Below are positions 18,902 through 28,280 of a stretch of DNA of 52,943 nucleotides, piece by piece. A program made the position numbers and the translations under genes. The DNA comes from Guyparkeria sp. (GTDB lineage: Bacteria; Pseudomonadota; Gammaproteobacteria; Halothiobacillales; Halothiobacillaceae), in the NCBI GenBank assembly GCA_024636755.1, contig JAGXGL010000057.1, forward strand, positions 1-52,943, given 5' to 3'. The notes below the pieces were generated by a model that made no database searches, had not been told where the DNA came from, and saw only the letters and a program-made list of their open reading frames with translations. Every line of letters begins with the position of its first letter. The stretch's first letter is position 1.

Positions 18902-19867
18902 ATGATCCCAAGCTTCACCTATCAGCACCTTCCCTCGGACGCCGGCGATAGCGACTGGCAGCGGGCGCTTCCCGATAGCTGGGACGCGCCCGTTGCCGGT
19001 GACCAACGCCTGATCGGCTCGGCAAACCCCTGGATACCCACGCGCGTCGCGCTGATCTCCCCGTCGCTGCGTCATTACCTCCAGTGTGGCGAGGAGTGTC
19101 TGCAGCGGGCAAACGGACCGGTGGCGGCGATCAGCCCGCCCCGGGTCATCATTCTCAGCCGGGCACATGCCGACGTGCTCGCCGACTGGCTCGACCAGCA
19201 CGCCACGGCCACCAGCACGGCGGCCGACATCCATATCCTGAGCACCAGCGAGGACGACGAGACCGTCGTTCGGCGGTTGCGACGGTTATGTGGCCACACT
19301 GACGAAGACTGGCGCCATGGCGTGTTCATGGAGGTCAGCGGGTTGGGGGTGCTGATCCGCGGCTCAGCGGGCATTGGCAAGAGCGAGGTGGCACTCGAAC
19401 TCCTCAGCCGCGGGCATCGACTGATCGCCGACGACGCGCCCTGCTTCACCGCTCACGGGGAGGAAGTCACGGGCTCCTGCCCCGATCGTCTGTTCGGCCT
19501 GCTTGAAGTCCGGGGCATCGGCATCGTCGACATCCGCGAACTCTTCGGCAGCAACGCGATCAAGGCGCGCAAATACCTTCGTCTGATCGTCGACCTCTAC
19601 CCCGCCGATGCCGGCCGTCCCATCGGTGCCGAGGAGCGCCTGTTCGGCGACCGTGGCAACGAGCCGGTTGCCGGGCAGACCATTCCCGTCTGGCGCATGC
19701 CGGTGGCACCGGGGCGCAACCTTGCGGTCCTGCTGGAAACGATCGTGCGCCAGCGCAACCTCGAGCGACAGCGCGGCGGCCAGCCGGCCAGCCCGCAAAT
19801 CGCGCGGCTGTTCGCCGACGGCGAGATTCCGCCGCGCCCCGATGAAAGGCCGGAGCCCTGGTCATGA
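18902..19867 (+). CDS. hprK: HPr kinase/phosphorylase
   Basis: 321 residues. The N-terminal domain (about 1-130) is followed by the kinase domain: Walker A GSAGIGKS (154-161), LIADDAP, and the HprK signature LLEVRGIGIVDIRELFG (about 199-215). The enzyme phosphorylates or dephosphorylates HPr on serine. Its target is in the same operon: the HPr at 21231-21521 keeps a Ser53 site. Enteric bacteria lack hprK; it occurs in many other proteobacteria. The stop overlaps the start of rapZ (ATGA). Confidence 0.95.
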   Translation: MIPSFTYQHLPSDAGDSDWQRALPDSWDAPVAGDQRLIGSANPWIPTRVALISPSLRHYLQCGEECLQRANGPVAAISPPRVIILSRAHADVLADWLDQHATATSTAADIHILSTSEDDETVVRRLRRLCGHTDEDWRHGVFMEVSGLGVLIRGSAGIGKSEVALELLSRGHRLIADDAPCFTAHGEEVTGSCPDRLFGLLEVRGIGIVDIRELFGSNAIKARKYLRLIVDLYPADAGRPIGAEERLFGDRGNEPVAGQTIPVWRMPVAPGRNLAVLLETIVRQRNLERQRGGQPASPQIARLFADGEIPPRPDERPEPWS

Positions 19868-20745
19868 CCGCCCCCTTGCCGCGCTTGATACTCGTCACGG
19901 GGCAATCCGGCTCGGGCAAGTCCGTGGCCCTGGCGGCCCTGGAAGACAGCGGGTTCTACTGCATCGACAACCTGCCGCCGGACCTGCTCGACCACCTCGC
20001 CGAAAGCTACCTGGAAGGCAGCATCGTCGCGCGCGGGATTGCGATCAGCATCGATGCGCGTGCGCCCGAGCAATCGCTGGCCAACCTTCCCGACCGCATC
20101 GACCGACTCAGGGAACGCCTGCCGCAACTGCAGATCAGCAGCCTGTTCCTCGAGGCCGATCGTCAACGGCTGATCACCCGGTTTTCCGAGACCCGGCGGC
20201 GGCACCCACTCTCCTACCAGATCGAGAACCTGGTCGAGGCGATCGCGCGCGAGGGGCAACTACTGATGCCGATCCGCGCCTACGCGGACCTGGTCATCGA
20301 CACCAGCCTGACCACCGTCCACCAACTGCGTGAGGACGTGCGCTCACGCCTGATCGGTGAAAAGGAGGCCGGGCCGCGCATCCTGATCCAGTCGTTCGGC
20401 TTCAAGTTTGGCATTCCCCTCGACTCGGACTTTCTCTTCGACGTGCGCTTTTTGCCCAATCCGCACTGGTCGGCAGCGCTACGTTCGCACAGCGGACTCG
20501 ATCAACCGGTGGTCGAGTACCTCGAACAGCATCCGGTGACGCACGAGACCCGCACGCGCATCGCCGAGTTCCTCGCTCACATGCTCACCGAGGCAAGCCA
20601 TAGTGATCGCAGTTACCTCACCTGCTCGATCGGCTGCACGGGCGGCAAGCATCGCTCGGTCTACGTCGTCGAGCAGATCGCCCGCGACCTGCGGCCCACC
20701 TTCGGCAACCTGGTGGTCCGCCATCGTGATCTCGGCAACCACTGA
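19864..20745 (+). CDS. rapZ: RNase adaptor protein RapZ (P-loop ATPase)
   Basis: 293 residues. Walker A GQSGSGKS (about 13-20) and the family segments DSGFYCIDNLPPDLL, FGFKFGIPLDSDFLFDVRFLPNP and SYLTCSIGCTGGKHRSVYV are present. In E. coli RapZ binds the sRNAs GlmZ and GlmY and steers RNase E to control GlmS, linking envelope precursor supply to the cell wall. The C-terminal RNA-binding/phosphate-binding half is intact. It overlaps hprK, and the next gene starts 84 bases after it. Confidence 0.96.
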   Translation: MTAPLPRLILVTGQSGSGKSVALAALEDSGFYCIDNLPPDLLDHLAESYLEGSIVARGIAISIDARAPEQSLANLPDRIDRLRERLPQLQISSLFLEADRQRLITRFSETRRRHPLSYQIENLVEAIAREGQLLMPIRAYADLVIDTSLTTVHQLREDVRSRLIGEKEAGPRILIQSFGFKFGIPLDSDFLFDVRFLPNPHWSAALRSHSGLDQPVVEYLEQHPVTHETRTRIAEFLAHMLTEASHSDRSYLTCSIGCTGGKHRSVYVVEQIARDLRPTFGNLVVRHRDLGNH

Positions 20746-20829
20746 CCGCGATGGCGCACCCCCTGTCTCGGGCCCGTTTTTCGGTATGATGCGTTTTTTG
20801 CCGACCGCGACCGAGGAAGCACTCCCGCA

Positions 20830-21234
20830 ATGACCGTCGGAATCCTGCTGATCTGTCACAACGACATCGGGGGCCAGTTGATCGAAACGGCCACCGATAT
20901 GCTAGAACGCCTCCCTACCCGGCTCGACCACCTCGACGTGCGCCAGGACGACGACCCGATCGATCTGCTCAATGCCGCCCGACGGCGGGTGGCCGACCTC
21001 GACAGGGGCGAGGGGGTTTTGGTATTGACCGACATGTACGGCTCGACCCCGTCGAACATCGCCCACCGCTTGCGCGATCAGCACGATGTGCAGGTACTGT
21101 CCGGCGTGAATCTCCCCATGCTGGTTCGCGCCCTGAACTATCCGCGCCTGTCGCTCGACGAGATGACGGCCAAGGCCTGCAGCGGGGGTCGCGAGGGTAT
21201 CATTCAGGAAGGAGCGACCGAGGAGCGGTCATGA
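20830..21234 (+). CDS. PTS EIIA component, mannose family
   Basis: 134 residues with the EIIA-Man fold. The phosphorylatable His10 lies in GILLICHNDIGGQL; VLVLTDMYGSTPSNIA (about 64-79) and LSGVNLPMLVRALNY follow. In proteobacteria that have HprK this single-domain EIIA is usually found without EIIB/C permease partners and is thought to be regulatory. None of EIIB, EIIC or EI is in this window. The stop overlaps the start of ptsH, so HPr and this EIIA are made together. Confidence 0.93.
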   Translation: MTVGILLICHNDIGGQLIETATDMLERLPTRLDHLDVRQDDDPIDLLNAARRRVADLDRGEGVLVLTDMYGSTPSNIAHRLRDQHDVQVLSGVNLPMLVRALNYPRLSLDEMTAKACSGGREGIIQEGATEERS

Positions 21235-21521
21235 GCGAGAACATTCCTTCCGTCGTCCAGAGAGAATTGACGCTGCGCAATCGTCGCGGTCTGCACGCCC
21301 GCGCCGCCGCACGTTTCGCCGCGACGGCCGAACAATACGCAAGCGAGATCGAAGTCGCGTTCAACGACCGCCAGGTCAACGGCAAGTCGATCATGGGCCT
21401 GATGATGCTGGCCGCCGCCTGTGGCAAGACGATCACCGTCACCGCCACCGGCGACGATGCCGCCCAGGCCATCGAGGGGATCGCCGATTTGGTCGATGCC
21501 CGTTTTCACGAATCCGAATAA
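21231..21521 (+). CDS. ptsH: Phosphocarrier protein HPr
   Basis: 96 residues. The catalytic His22 in GLHARAAARFA accepts phosphate from enzyme I. The regulatory Ser53 in VNGKSIMGLMMLAA is the site used by HPr kinase, which is encoded upstream. Both sites are intact, so the protein can be read by two inputs (PEP via EI, ATP via HprK). It has an extra 7-8 residues at the N-terminus compared with classical HPr. EI (ptsI or ptsP), which often follows, is absent here: the next gene is an unrelated small protein and then a terminator. Confidence 0.95.
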   Translation: MSENIPSVVQRELTLRNRRGLHARAAARFAATAEQYASEIEVAFNDRQVNGKSIMGLMMLAAACGKTITVTATGDDAAQAIEGIADLVDARFHESE

Positions 21522-23291: not shown

Positions 23292-23990
23292 CTAGGGATT
23301 CTCCGGATCGTGATTGATTCTTGAATTGGATTGAGCCGGGTTTTGAACCCGGCCGGCCGCCATGGCCCGCGTCAGGGACTCGGCGGCGGCCCGAATGTCG
23401 GCGGCGGCGAACACCTCGCTGATCACCGCGATCATGTCGGGGCGATGCGGCATCAGGTCGGCCACGTTCGCCGCCGTGATACCACCGATGCCGCAGACCG
23501 GCCGGCCGAGCCGCTCCCGGGCCCAGCCCAGCACCTCTGCAGGCGCGCCGGGGGCATGCGGTTTGGTTGGCGACGGGAACATCGCGCCGAAGGCCAGGTA
23601 ATCGGCCCCCTCTGCCGCGGCGCGTTCGGCCCGAAGCCGATCAGCATAGCAAGACACACCGATGATCGCATCGAGCCCCGCGGCCTCGAAACGGGCCCGC
23701 GTGTCGGTCAACGGGGCATCCTCACGGCCGAGATGCACACCATCGGCGCCGACCGCGATCGCCAGCGCCACGTCGTCGTTGACGATAAAGACACGATCGT
23801 GATGCCGGCACAGCTCGGCGAGTGCCGCGGCCTCGTCACGGCGCCGCTCGGAATCCGTGTTCTTGTCCCGGTACTGGACAATCCGCGCCCCGCCCCCAAT
23901 GGCCTCGCTTGCCGCCTCGACCAGCGCCTCGCGCTGAAACCGGGTGGTATCGGTGATCACGTACAGCCCGTTCAGATCGTCCCGGCTCAT
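23292..23990 (-). CDS. thiE: Thiamine-phosphate synthase
   Basis: 232 residues from the ATG at 23990; a much longer frame upstream is only the shadow of glucokinase. The enzyme joins HMP-PP with the thiazole phosphate to give thiamine phosphate. The TIM-barrel motifs are GLYVITD, IVQYRDKN, IVNDDVALAIAVGADGVHLGRED and AFGAMFPSPTKPHAPG (phosphate/PP loop), then VCGIGGITAANV. The tail after about residue 205 is a polar extension. Its start overlaps the glk stop (ATGA). No TPP riboswitch is seen, as expected for an internal operon gene. Confidence 0.95.
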   Translation of the reverse strand: MSRDDLNGLYVITDTTRFQREALVEAASEAIGGGARIVQYRDKNTDSERRRDEAAALAELCRHHDRVFIVNDDVALAIAVGADGVHLGREDAPLTDTRARFEAAGLDAIIGVSCYADRLRAERAAAEGADYLAFGAMFPSPTKPHAPGAPAEVLGWARERLGRPVCGIGGITAANVADLMPHRPDMIAVISEVFAAADIRAAAESLTRAMAAGRVQNPAQSNSRINHDPENP

Positions 23991-25009
23991 CGTTCCACCC
24001 TGGTTGAATCCATTTCCTGCTCGGCCAATCGCCGCGCCCCGGCGAGACCGAGATTGCCGTCGGCAACCACCCACAGCGGCAGACGGCCGAGCATGGTCGC
24101 AAACCGCCCCTTGTCGAGAAAGGCCTCCAACGTCTGCTCGCGCACGAACGGCATAATGTGCCCGACGATGGCCCCGGCGATAAAGACCCCACCGGTGGGT
24201 AGCGACTTGAGCGCAAGATTGCCGGCCTCCGCCCCGAGGATCCGGGCGAACAGCCGACAGGCGATCACCGCGCATTCGTCCTCGCCGCGGTTCGCCCACT
24301 GGGTGACCAGGGCATTGGGGTCCGAGGCCGCCGAGAGCTGCCCATCGGCACCCGGGGTCGGGCGGCCAAGCTCCGCATGGCGCGCAAAGGCATAGAGCGA
24401 GGAAAAACCGTCGCCACTGAGAATGCGCTCGTAACTGACGTGACCACCGAACCGCCCACGCAGGTAGCTCAGCAAGGCCGCCTCGCGCTCGTCGTTGGGA
24501 CCGAAGTCGCAATGGCCGCCCTCGCTCGGCATCGGGTGGTGGCGGTCCCCATCATGGAAGAACAAGGCCTCGCCCAGCCCGGTGCCCGGCGCGATCACGG
24601 CGGCATGCCCCGTGGCCGGCGTGGCCTCGGGATTAAGGTTCACCCGCCGGTCGAGCGGGCTTGCCAACGCACCCAGACCCACGGCGATCAGGTCATTGAC
24701 CAGCCGAACACGCGCGCCGCCGAGGGCCTGGCCAATCGTCGCCGCGTCCAAGGTCCAGGGCAGATTGGTTGCCTGCACCCGCGCCGCGTCGCCCTCGCCT
24801 TGCACCGGTCCGGCGATACCGAACGCGGCCACTTCGATCCGCCCGTGGTCGTGCCGACCGGCAAGCTCGAGGAAGGACGAGAGCATCGCGGCAAAGCCCG
24901 CGTAATCCTGACTGGGCAAGGTCTGCTCGAATCGAGCCGCGGGCTCGCCGGCGACGAACAGCGCCAGGCGCGAGCGTGTCCCGCCGATATCACCCGCCAG
25001 AATCATCAT
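23987..25009 (-). CDS. glk: Glucokinase (proteobacterial Glk family)
   Basis: 340 residues. ATP-dependent phosphorylation of glucose is indicated by LAGDIGGTRSRLALF (phosphate-1 motif), FGIAGPV, TNLPWTLDA, VNDLIAVGLG, VIAPGTGLGEALF and SEGGHCDFGP, the Glk family set. I chose the ATG at 25009, 4 bases after GGAGG; the next codon is also ATG. The longer frame to 25171 lies inside the upstream gene. The start is 20 bases inside the end of the phosphorylase-kinase-like gene, so the two are probably co-translated. A second, ROK-type sugar kinase is at 47437-48360. Confidence 0.95.
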   Translation of the reverse strand: MMILAGDIGGTRSRLALFVAGEPAARFEQTLPSQDYAGFAAMLSSFLELAGRHDHGRIEVAAFGIAGPVQGEGDAARVQATNLPWTLDAATIGQALGGARVRLVNDLIAVGLGALASPLDRRVNLNPEATPATGHAAVIAPGTGLGEALFFHDGDRHHPMPSEGGHCDFGPNDEREAALLSYLRGRFGGHVSYERILSGDGFSSLYAFARHAELGRPTPGADGQLSAASDPNALVTQWANRGEDECAVIACRLFARILGAEAGNLALKSLPTGGVFIAGAIVGHIMPFVREQTLEAFLDKGRFATMLGRLPLWVVADGNLGLAGARRLAEQEMDSTRVER

Positions 25010-28000
25010 TTGCCTCCTCCAAAACGGGAACCGCGTCGACGTCCGCTGCGAGCAGGTAATCCAATGCGGCACCCACCCAATGGGCAACGGCCAGTGGCGA
25101 TCGATGGTAGAACGCCTGCCAGGCATCTGCTCGTGACTCGTCGTAACGCCCCCCGTCTTCGGGATGCTCATGGAGCCAGGCCAGACGGACGGCGTGCCCG
25201 ATCACCACGTCGAGCACCAATGGTTCCTCGATCGACAGCTCCGGGGAGTGCGTCACGATCTCGATCAGTGCGGCGATCGCCTCGACGTTCAACTCCCGGT
25301 ATTCGGGGGCATCAATTCGATTGAGCCGATGCTCGACGGCCAGGGCGAAGTTGTGCTCCCGGGCGGTCGACTGGCCCCGATAGAGCGCGCTGTCGAGCAC
25401 GTTGCGTGGATCGAACCGATTGCCGATCACCAAGGTCGGGACATGACCCAGTAAGTCCCACACCCCCTCGTAAAAGCGCTCGGGCAGGCGACTCATCGCC
25501 CCGCCGATCTCACGACGGTGGTACCAATCCACCGTGCGCGCCGTATCTTGCCCAGCCGCCGGCTCTCCCGACCCATCTCCACTCAGCACCGAGGCGGTCG
25601 GCGAGGTCGGCGGCTCACCCTCGGCCTGCGGGGTCGGCGGGCGGGCGGTATCGCGTCGATGCAGCGCCTCGAGCCGTTCGGGCTGATCCCGCCAGTCGAT
25701 CGCCTCACGCAATCGTTCGCGCAAGGCATGCGGCGCCATGCCGACAAGCTCGTCCAACGCCTGCGACGGCGGAATCGCCGCCTCGCGAGCGCGCAGGGCC
25801 ACCAGGATCTGCAGCAGCGGGCCGGTACGCAGGGTAATCACGTTGCAGAACAGGTCCGGCTCGGCACGCAACCAGGCACCGAGGTGAATCACGAGTTCCT
25901 GGGTCAGGGAGCGTTCCCGCGGATCGTCATCGCAATAGGCGTGGATCCGGCGCAGGATTTCGCGATTCGAGATCGGGGCGTCGATCACCGCCGCTCGGCT
26001 GTAGGAACGCCCCACGGCCAGCCGCTTCTGGCGCACGACCAGATCCATCAAGGCGACCTCGAGAAACCCGTCGACCACGCCGGCGAGATCCGCCGCCAGG
26101 CGCATTACCCGCCAGGCACCCACCCGCTGGGCCAGCCGTAACAGGGCAATACAGTGACCGTTCCAGTCGCGCAGCTCGCCGTCGACATCGGCAAACGTCT
26201 GCTCGGGGGCCAATGCACTCCGCGCCAGCCACTCGAGCAGCATCAATCGTTCATCCAGCGCGGTGGCGCGCCCAAAGACCGCGATCAGCTCGTCGACCGA
26301 ATCGGCTTCGCCCAGTTCGGCGGCAATCGCATCGACATCACCACCCCACTCCCATCTGCCGCAGCGAACCGGTTCGCTAACGGGCGCGTCGGGTAGCTGT
26401 CCGGGCAGTCGCCACTTCGATGCCGCCTGCACCAGCTCGTCCAGGCGTCCGAGCCGAACCCGGTCAACCCGGCCGCTCGTCAGCTGGTCGAAGAAGGCCA
26501 ACACCGTCGCGCCCCCCGGGCCATCGAGCATCCAGTCGAAAATCGGGATTGCCCATAGGGCGTGCCCCGGACCGCGGGCGTATCGGGCCAGGTAAGCCAG
26601 GCTGGTACGAACCTCGTGGATCAGCAATTCGGCATCCCGACCAAGCAGAAAGGTGTCGGTGTCGAACAGTGACGGGATCACGGCCGAGTCGCCCCTATCG
26701 CTGACGATCACCCGGTCCGCCGACAGGCCCAGCAGCCGCCGCTTCGTGCGCCCCGTCAACGCGAGGTGCCCATTCGTCCCCACCGAGGCCAGTCGCTCGA
26801 CCAGGACATCGGCCGGGATCACGGCCGTCTGGGTCTGTTCCGGCCACGAGACCGGCCCGATACCGGCGGCCTCGAGTCGCTCGGCCACGGACGGCGTCTG
26901 AGCGAGCAGCGCCACGTTTATTTCGACGCTGGAGGATTCCAGCCTGGGCCGATGACGACCGATCGGATCCATGTCCGACGGTTGAATGTGCCCCGCCAGT
27001 AACAGCCGACCGACCACCCACAGGCTCTGGGCCCAGACTAGTGGTCGGTTTTCATTTGCCAGGCGATCGGTGGCGCCGGGGGTGTGACGCTCGGTCTCGA
27101 TCGACTCGGTCGGCACGTAATAGAGCTCGGGCAACACCGGTGCGCCGCATTCGCACACCGCCACCCGCTGGATCTGCCGATGGATCGACGCGGCTGCCGC
27201 GCGATCCCCGGAAAAACAGGCATTGATCAGTCGATAGGTGAAAAACAGCGGCCACTCGCACTCGATGTGGGCAAAGGCCTCGAGTTCCTCGGGGTCGTAG
27301 TGGAGCTTGGTTTCATCCTCGATCGACGTCTGGTGTCCATCGCGCAGAAAACGCTTGTAACCGTAGCGCCCGGCCAGCCGTGTCTCGATGCGTTCACCCA
27401 CCTCCTCGGCCTTGTCACCGGCGGCAAAGGCCGGAAAACCGATCACGGCGAGCAGCGCCGAATCGATTTCCTTGGAGGCCGATTCCCGGGGGAGGATCGA
27501 ATCCAGACACTGCTGCACCCGGGCGATATCGTCGGGCACCACCTGCAACCGACTGGCGTCATCGCCCTGTTCGCCGAACAGATCAAAGCCGTCGGCCGCC
27601 TCCAGTGCAGCAAGCACCAGGCCGAGTGAGCTGGCATTGAGCTCACGCATACCATGGTTGATCTTGTTGCCACGCTCCCAGATGCCGTAGTCGGGAATCA
27701 CGTACGCCCGCGACAGGTACCAGACGAGGTTCTGGACGAAATCCACCTCGTCACGCCCCTGCACGATCGTCAGCCCGCCCGCGGTCATCTGCACCAGCAT
27801 CAGCAGGAACAGCGAAGTGGCATCCAGTTGCAGGTGCCCCCACTCCTCGTCACCCACCACCGCCTCGCCGGTCGCGGTGTCGTATTTGGCATGCAACGCA
27901 TCGATCGGGTCGAGGCTGTGCTTGAAGCGCTCGACCCGATCGGCCTGACGCATCATGGCCAGCAGGAGCCCGCGCATGTTGCGGACGACCGCCTGTTCGA

Positions 28001-28280
28001 GCTCGAAGGCCTGGGCCGATTGTCCGGCACGACGGCAGGCAATGCCGAGTGCCCAGGGGCCGAGGATGCTGTAGACGTTGTCGCGCACCCAGGCGTCGGT
28101 GTAGTCGCCATGGGCGGTCACCGCCGTACTGGCAGGCAGCAGCCCCGAGATCGGGTGTTGGCGGTCGAGGATATGGCGACGGACTTCGCCAAAGAGGGTA
28201 TCGAGTGATATCTCGTCGATAACAGGATCGACGGCGGTGTTGGAATGGGGCGAAGTGTCGGAGGCGAGACCGGACGTCAT
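24990..28280 (-). CDS. GH15-like protein, full-length homologue of phosphorylase kinase alpha/beta subunits
   Basis: 1096 residues from the ATG at 28280 (GTG at 28289 also possible). Residues about 40-430 form a GH15 (glucoamylase-fold) domain very like eukaryotic PHKA: LLPAS, DAWVRDNVYSILGPWALG, FELEQAVVRNMRGLL, WGHLQLDATSLFLL, ELNASSLG, LHYDPEELEAF and ECEWPLFFTY. Glutamates matching the catalytic acid (IWERG, about 202) and base (LPELYYVP, about 385) are present. The C-terminus also matches PHKA (WYHRREIGGAMSRLPERFYE near 919, then EHRLNRIDAPEYRELNVEAI). The middle holds helical repeats and a Pro/Thr linker near 890-915. There is no signal peptide, so it is cytoplasmic. It overlaps glk by 20 bases, which points to alpha-glucan or glucose handling. 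Whether it hydrolyses glucan or regulates an enzyme is unknown. Confidence 0.9.
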   Translation of the reverse strand: MTSGLASDTSPHSNTAVDPVIDEISLDTLFGEVRRHILDRQHPISGLLPASTAVTAHGDYTDAWVRDNVYSILGPWALGIACRRAGQSAQAFELEQAVVRNMRGLLLAMMRQADRVERFKHSLDPIDALHAKYDTATGEAVVGDEEWGHLQLDATSLFLLMLVQMTAGGLTIVQGRDEVDFVQNLVWYLSRAYVIPDYGIWERGNKINHGMRELNASSLGLVLAALEAADGFDLFGEQGDDASRLQVVPDDIARVQQCLDSILPRESASKEIDSALLAVIGFPAFAAGDKAEEVGERIETRLAGRYGYKRFLRDGHQTSIEDETKLHYDPEELEAFAHIECEWPLFFTYRLINACFSGDRAAAASIHRQIQRVAVCECGAPVLPELYYVPTESIETERHTPGATDRLANENRPLVWAQSLWVVGRLLLAGHIQPSDMDPIGRHRPRLESSSVEINVALLAQTPSVAERLEAAGIGPVSWPEQTQTAVIPADVLVERLASVGTNGHLALTGRTKRRLLGLSADRVIVSDRGDSAVIPSLFDTDTFLLGRDAELLIHEVRTSLAYLARYARGPGHALWAIPIFDWMLDGPGGATVLAFFDQLTSGRVDRVRLGRLDELVQAASKWRLPGQLPDAPVSEPVRCGRWEWGGDVDAIAAELGEADSVDELIAVFGRATALDERLMLLEWLARSALAPEQTFADVDGELRDWNGHCIALLRLAQRVGAWRVMRLAADLAGVVDGFLEVALMDLVVRQKRLAVGRSYSRAAVIDAPISNREILRRIHAYCDDDPRERSLTQELVIHLGAWLRAEPDLFCNVITLRTGPLLQILVALRAREAAIPPSQALDELVGMAPHALRERLREAIDWRDQPERLEALHRRDTARPPTPQAEGEPPTSPTASVLSGDGSGEPAAGQDTARTVDWYHRREIGGAMSRLPERFYEGVWDLLGHVPTLVIGNRFDPRNVLDSALYRGQSTAREHNFALAVEHRLNRIDAPEYRELNVEAIAALIEIVTHSPELSIEEPLVLDVVIGHAVRLAWLHEHPEDGGRYDESRADAWQAFYHRSPLAVAHWVGAALDYLLAADVDAVPVLEEANDDSGG

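Follow-up and report, generated by a model that had tools for sequence, protein, structure and literature searches.

A bacterial member of the phosphorylase kinase alpha/beta family, overlapping glucokinase in Guyparkeria, as a candidate alpha-glucan hydrolase

The presence of a glucoamylase-like domain in the regulatory subunits of phosphorylase kinase (PhK) is so far unexplained. A 2024 paper on the structure of the kinase described the alpha site as apparently intact, reported no activity, and called for more work. In the window analyzed here, which is the whole stretch of 52,943 nucleotides from the sulfur-oxidizing bacterium Guyparkeria, a gene for a PHK alpha/beta-like protein (PHK-like protein) runs into a glucokinase gene (glk), raising the question of whether a bacterial relative of these subunits releases glucose or regulates its use.

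The family is already represented in databases: bacterial PHK-like proteins are recognized by Pfam KPBB_C, and KO K07190, which we take to be PHK alpha/beta, appears in two microbiome papers. No study of bacterial members, or of their linkage to glucokinase or glycogen genes, was found in the literature searched, where subscription papers are sparsely covered and absence is unproven; the accessible part of a review from 2024 on prokaryotic alpha-glucan enzymes says nothing about phosphorylase kinase. Within this literature, the gene couplings and the contrast between bacterial and human active sites appear to be unreported.

Homology and fold of the PHK-like protein

The open reading frame encodes 1096 aa, starting at an ATG at 28280, with an in-frame GTG three codons upstream, and ending with a TGA (Table 1). 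When PDB sequences were searched with phmmer, human PHKA1 (8jfk_M) matched the PHK-like protein with E=3.1e-168 over three collinear stretches (residues 29-621, 725-865, and 892-1011), and human PHKB (8jfk_B) matched with E=5.2e-136, the collinear matches to both starting close to the N terminus and ending close to the C terminus. When 40 bacterial homologues were combined in a profile, it scored 1073 bits against PHKA1 and 908 bits against PHKB, with no match in the PDB sequences beyond the chains of these two proteins. Pfam GH15 (3.4e-62) and KPBB_C (9.5e-72) were both found far over cut-off in the single chain, and neither match was weak.

The fold was consistent with these results. The AlphaFold model (mean pLDDT, 79.6) matched PhK alpha with a Z of 43.8 over 762 residues, and the likeness to PHK alpha/beta continued collinearly from the GH15-like D1 through D2-D5. 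The GH15 domain shared 48% identity with PhK alpha over 405 residues in the fold alignment, and residues 916-1081 matched the C-terminal domain of PhK alpha (Z 18.4). A sequence-only reading of the window had proposed that homology to PHKA spans more than the glucoamylase domain, and this proposal was borne out. The protein is a member of the PHK alpha/beta family but probably does not function as a subunit of phosphorylase kinase. Neither this homology nor the catalytic-glutamate match and glk overlap described below is due to chance.

Table 1. Positions of the PHK-like gene, its predicted active-site codons, and the glk junction in the window
Feature	Position	Strand	Evidence
PHK alpha/beta-like gene	24990..28280	-	ORF, phmmer, Pfam, 40-homologue profile
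D1, GH15 (alpha/alpha)6-barrel, residues ~23-432	26985..28214	-	Pfam, fold matches
KPBB_C, phosphorylase b kinase C-terminal domain	25041..25784	-	Pfam
Y60, GH15 Tyr contacting the general base, in invariant HG-x-Y loop	28101..28103	-	Alignments
R66-D67, subsite -1	28080..28085	-	Alignments
E202, predicted general acid (human PHKA1 E185)	27675..27677	-	Alignments
E385, predicted general base (human PHKA1 E371)	27126..27128	-	Alignments
W416, invariant, aligned with Trp of the GH15 LTWSY motif	27033..27035	-	Alignments
glk (glucokinase of 340 aa), starting within the PHK-like gene that precedes it	23987..25009	-	ORF, family models
Overlap of PHK-like gene and glk, 20 bases	24990..25009	-	
Shine-Dalgarno-like GGAGGAGG preceding glk, within the PHK-like coding sequence	25013..25020	-	Strong ribosome-binding-like site

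Active site of D1 and its conservation

The nearest enzyme folds to D1 were those of GH15, with isomaltose glucohydrolase of Kribbella (Z 28) followed by the glucoamylase of T. thermosaccharolyticum (Z 25). The GH15 general acid and base Glu and the subsite -1 Tyr, Arg-Asp, and Trp are all present in the PHK-like protein, and in a profile-profile alignment with sixteen ordinary GH15 proteins, Y60, R66, D67, E202, R310, and E385 superposed on GH15-invariant residues. The catalytic glutamates that had been placed at about 202 and 385 from the sequence are E202 (WERG) and E385 (PELY) and coincide exactly with E185 and E371 of human PHKA1, which have been named as its two catalytic Glu (PMC10978961). 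In glucoamylase, glucodextranase, and isomaltose glucohydrolase, Tyr337, Tyr326, and Tyr48, respectively, hydrogen-bond the general base, and Asp 344, 333, and 56 hold glucose (PMC12446779); two of these three enzymes have the same Tyr-to-Asp spacing, 7, as Y60 and D67. The active-site loop 199-212 had a pLDDT of <50 in both models of the protein. F311 aligns with a GH15 Tyr, and its putative equivalence to F290 of the Kribbella enzyme (KfIG) is taken only from the name of the F290Y mutant.

Inverting GH15 enzymes have Gln after the general base (PMC12446779), whereas this residue is L386 in the PHK-like protein and Leu or Val in all 40 rows of the alignment of bacterial homologues. The Gln is usual in inverting GH15 but does not define the family, being Ser in dextran dextrinase, a retaining GH15 homologue. 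That enzyme is also a near fold to D1 (Z 24.6), and its authors consider the two mechanisms inseparable by sequence alone, so a transglucosidase that remodels alpha-glucan instead of hydrolyzing it has to be weighed; we regard it as very improbable, as inverting members have a similar Pro before the base and, if the correspondence holds, a similar Ala to the invariant one that follows the motif Trp.

In the 40-row alignment, all 14 subsite -1 and catalytic columns inspected were invariant (Y60, W64, R66, D67, G148, Q151, D153, W201, E202, R310, F311, D314, E385, and W416; p of about 1e-7 given the background rate in D1). The subsite -1 and catalytic residues were also kept in ten divergent bacterial members checked later, with the exception of A417, which was Thr in two; no bacterial member examined had lost any of the GH15 subsite -1 residues, among them the Tyr that contacts the catalytic base. 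Invariant columns made up 33% of D1, 4-7% of D2-D4, and 15% of D5, as would be seen in an enzyme for which the catalytic domain counts most. This pattern bears on the alternative that the protein is a glucan-binding regulator that performs no hydrolysis, with D1 binding glycogen ends and D3-D5 signaling their occupancy to Glk or a glycogen enzyme, as is imaginable for PhK. Retention of the full D2-D5, a D5 that folds like the gamma-contacting domain of PhK alpha (Z 18.4), the inactivity of human alpha, and the replaced Gln would all suit a regulator. However, D2-D5 are the least conserved parts and the catalytic residues never vary, and the features lost in the human subunits (the HG-x-Y loop, N411, and, in beta, the base) are exactly those that the bacteria keep. 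A regulator of this type is considered unlikely.

Gene neighborhoods, distribution, and glycogen genes

The overlap of the PHK-like gene with glk, also noticed in the earlier reading, was confirmed, the glk ATG at 25009 preceding the PHK-like TGA at 24992-24990. In the 21 family regions fetched (the window and L029-L048), glk was directly downstream of the PHK-like gene in every case, the distance between the two genes being estimated at -20 to +84 bases. Because the surrounding gene order is also shared across the family, the linkage there represents one inherited arrangement. In other proteobacterial families, glk was also directly downstream at L139, L144, and L145; at L139 and L145, the pair lies in different surroundings, and the L144 protein groups with that of Halothiobacillus. 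No glk linkage was found beside cyanobacterial PHK-like genes. Beside the PHK-like/glk pair of L139, and divergent from it, lies a gene for a 1,099-aa protein with both protein kinase and AAA domains (L139:11514-14810, plus strand), maybe by coincidence. In the window, the opposite flank of the glk cluster (18902-21521, plus strand) holds what looks by eye like a run of PTS regulatory genes, HPr kinase/RapZ/EIIA/HPr, and a bacterial small SRP RNA (Rfam RF00169, 65.9 bits) is located at 2008-2104 on the minus strand.

The PHK-like gene occurred in 27/27 genomes of Guyparkeria's family and was patchy elsewhere in Gammaproteobacteria (14 of 369 sampled, including four of its own genus). It was found in 8 of 398 genomes in the phylum sample, its own included, and, past the family cut-off, in 45 of 194 sampled cyanobacterial genomes; Synechococcus elongatus is among the carriers. 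In the trees, cyanobacterial sequences split from most proteobacterial ones, while the placement of human PHKA and PHKB was not firm, with long branches and shifting topology, and their position on the cyanobacterial side (94/89) was obtained in one tree only.

Glycogen genes adjoin the PHK-like gene at four loci: glgB-glgX-malQ-PHK on one strand at L265, PHK-glgB-glgX at L267 and L268, and PHK divergent from glgB-glgX-glgC at L147. NCBIfam models scoring above cut-off identified glgX and malQ at L265 as well as glgB and glgX at L267 and L268, and tblastn similarity identified glgB of L265 and the glg genes of L147. These loci are independent support for a link between the PHK-like protein and glycogen. 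Three of the four members concerned fall in a divergent second subgroup from Pseudomonadota (L265-L269; KPBB_C, 85-106 bits). No conserved carbohydrate neighbors of the cyanobacterial genes were found, the one weak glycogen-gene match being 7 kb away.

The same loci bear on the substrate. Sugar osmolytes are used by halophiles and many cyanobacteria, and the nearest enzyme fold is that of isomaltose glucohydrolase, which would suit an enzyme that hydrolyzes some small alpha-glucoside (trehalose, isomaltose, or a glucosylated osmolyte) and not glycogen. Trehalases and isomaltose glucohydrolase, moreover, both belong to GH15 (PMC12446779). However, the operon partners, where found, are glycogen genes, and the NCBIfam trehalase model scored the PHK-like protein at 11 bits against a cut-off of 820, leaving a small substrate decidedly improbable.

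Gene content indicates that Guyparkeria's family makes glycogen: GlgA was detected in 26/27 genomes, GT35 phosphorylase in 23/27, and a glgC-glgB-glgA-GH57-malQ cluster is present. A strong GDE_C match was missing from 24/27 genomes, and most had a single GH13 locus, the one typed being GlgB. A glucose-releasing or branch-trimming hydrolase would therefore be wanted in the family. The window's genome and two relatives do encode a GDE_N_bis/GDE_C protein (L255:1282-3438, minus strand, in the window's genome), for which most of the family gave no strong match. The idea that the PHK-like protein is the family's only debranching enzyme was weakened by this protein and by the GH57 enzyme of the glycogen cluster; the GH57 enzyme, MalQ, and the GDE_C protein of the window's genome could also share in glycogen breakdown. 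A 733-aa protein with no NCBIfam match abuts glgA (L223:11720-13918, plus strand) and is conserved downstream of glgA in Guyparkeria.

Proposed function and comparison with known systems

Of the two branches left open by the earlier reading, the active one, in which alpha-glucan is converted to glucose 6-phosphate, is favored over a glucan sensor because of the conservation and the glycogen-operon context. The PHK-like protein, with its whole PHK alpha/beta architecture of a D1 GH15 barrel followed by D2-D5, is probably an active cytosolic alpha-glucan hydrolase of GH15 that releases glucose, with Glk trapping the product. It would cut glucose from the nonreducing ends of glycogen or of oligosaccharides derived from it by phosphorylase and MalQ, and possibly also remove the alpha-1,6 stubs that phosphorylase leaves behind. 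Glucokinase, translated off the same message via the overlap, would convert the freed glucose to glucose 6-phosphate. A catabolic role has a parallel in Sulfolobus, where a GH15 null mutant contains excess glycogen, as expected if the enzyme is catabolic (PMC11046441). Against the hydrolase stand the inactivity of human PHKA1 with both Glu, the replaced Gln after the base, the low model confidence at loop 199-212, the cyanobacterial genes without linkage to glk or, beyond the one weak match, to glycogen genes, and the other enzymes that could share in glycogen breakdown. The gene overlap, the recurring linkage to glk or glycogen genes, the homology, the fold, and the active-site residues are documented, and the activity, substrate, translational coupling, and direction of evolution are what we infer.

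Such a hydrolase may add an unrecognized step of glycogen use in cyanobacteria and sulfur oxidizers. A family of bacterial proteins that shares the PhK architecture, has a fuller active site that is invariant, and is encoded in glycogen and glucokinase operons would also suggest the likely ancestral function of the PhK subunits, offer the remodeled Tyr loop as an explanation for the loss in humans, and supply simple proteins for testing. Animal PhK alpha and beta would have descended from such an enzyme, keeping the scaffold and losing the activity. That the bacterial family is a living form of this ancestor, a hydrolase and allosteric scaffold in one that relays the binding or cleavage of glucan by D1 via D3-D5 to a bound partner (here glucokinase) and that was silenced in human alpha by the remodeled loop, is a speculative and rather doubtful extension.

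Among known systems, Kribbella flavida isomaltose glucohydrolase (5Z3A), the best enzyme fold match with a Z of 28 across about 335 residues, shares the acid and base Glu, the Tyr before the RD motif, and the Pro before the base. It is only 18% identical to the PHK-like protein, is without D2-D5, and has Gln where the latter has Leu after the base. GH15 glucoamylases and glucodextranases (1LF6, 1UG9, and 3EQA) share the (alpha/alpha)6 barrel and the subsite -1 residues, whereas the PHK-like protein has Phe (F311) in place of their Tyr and carries the additional PHK-type D2-D5.

PHKA and PHKB share full-length collinear homology, the D1-D5 fold, and KPBB_C with the PHK-like protein, and alpha also shares both catalytic Glu. 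In identity over D1-D2, human alpha is closer to a Calothrix protein (53%) than to the window protein (42.6%) or human beta (41.5%); by this measure, the bacterial members nearest the animal subunits are cyanobacterial. Human PHKA1 keeps both Glu, yet its glucoamylase activity is undetectable (PMC10978961). Compared with the bacterial proteins, a 6-residue deletion in human alpha removes the HG-x-Y loop carrying the base-contacting Tyr, N411 is replaced by K, and A417 is replaced by G; PHKB additionally is without W64, R66, and the general base E385. The bacterial site, in contrast, is complete. The remodeled Tyr loop may explain why human alpha is inactive despite both Glu, and the loss of the Tyr is an alignment-based inference only, because the Tyr of the human PASY segment, 9 residues before the Asp compared with 7 in bacteria, could in principle replace Y60. 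Human alpha and beta undergo CaaX farnesylation (PMC10978961), whereas a CaaX box sought at the C terminus of the PHK-like protein was not found, the chain ending in NDDSGG. Finally, the neighbor of the PHK-like gene encodes a glucokinase and not a protein kinase.
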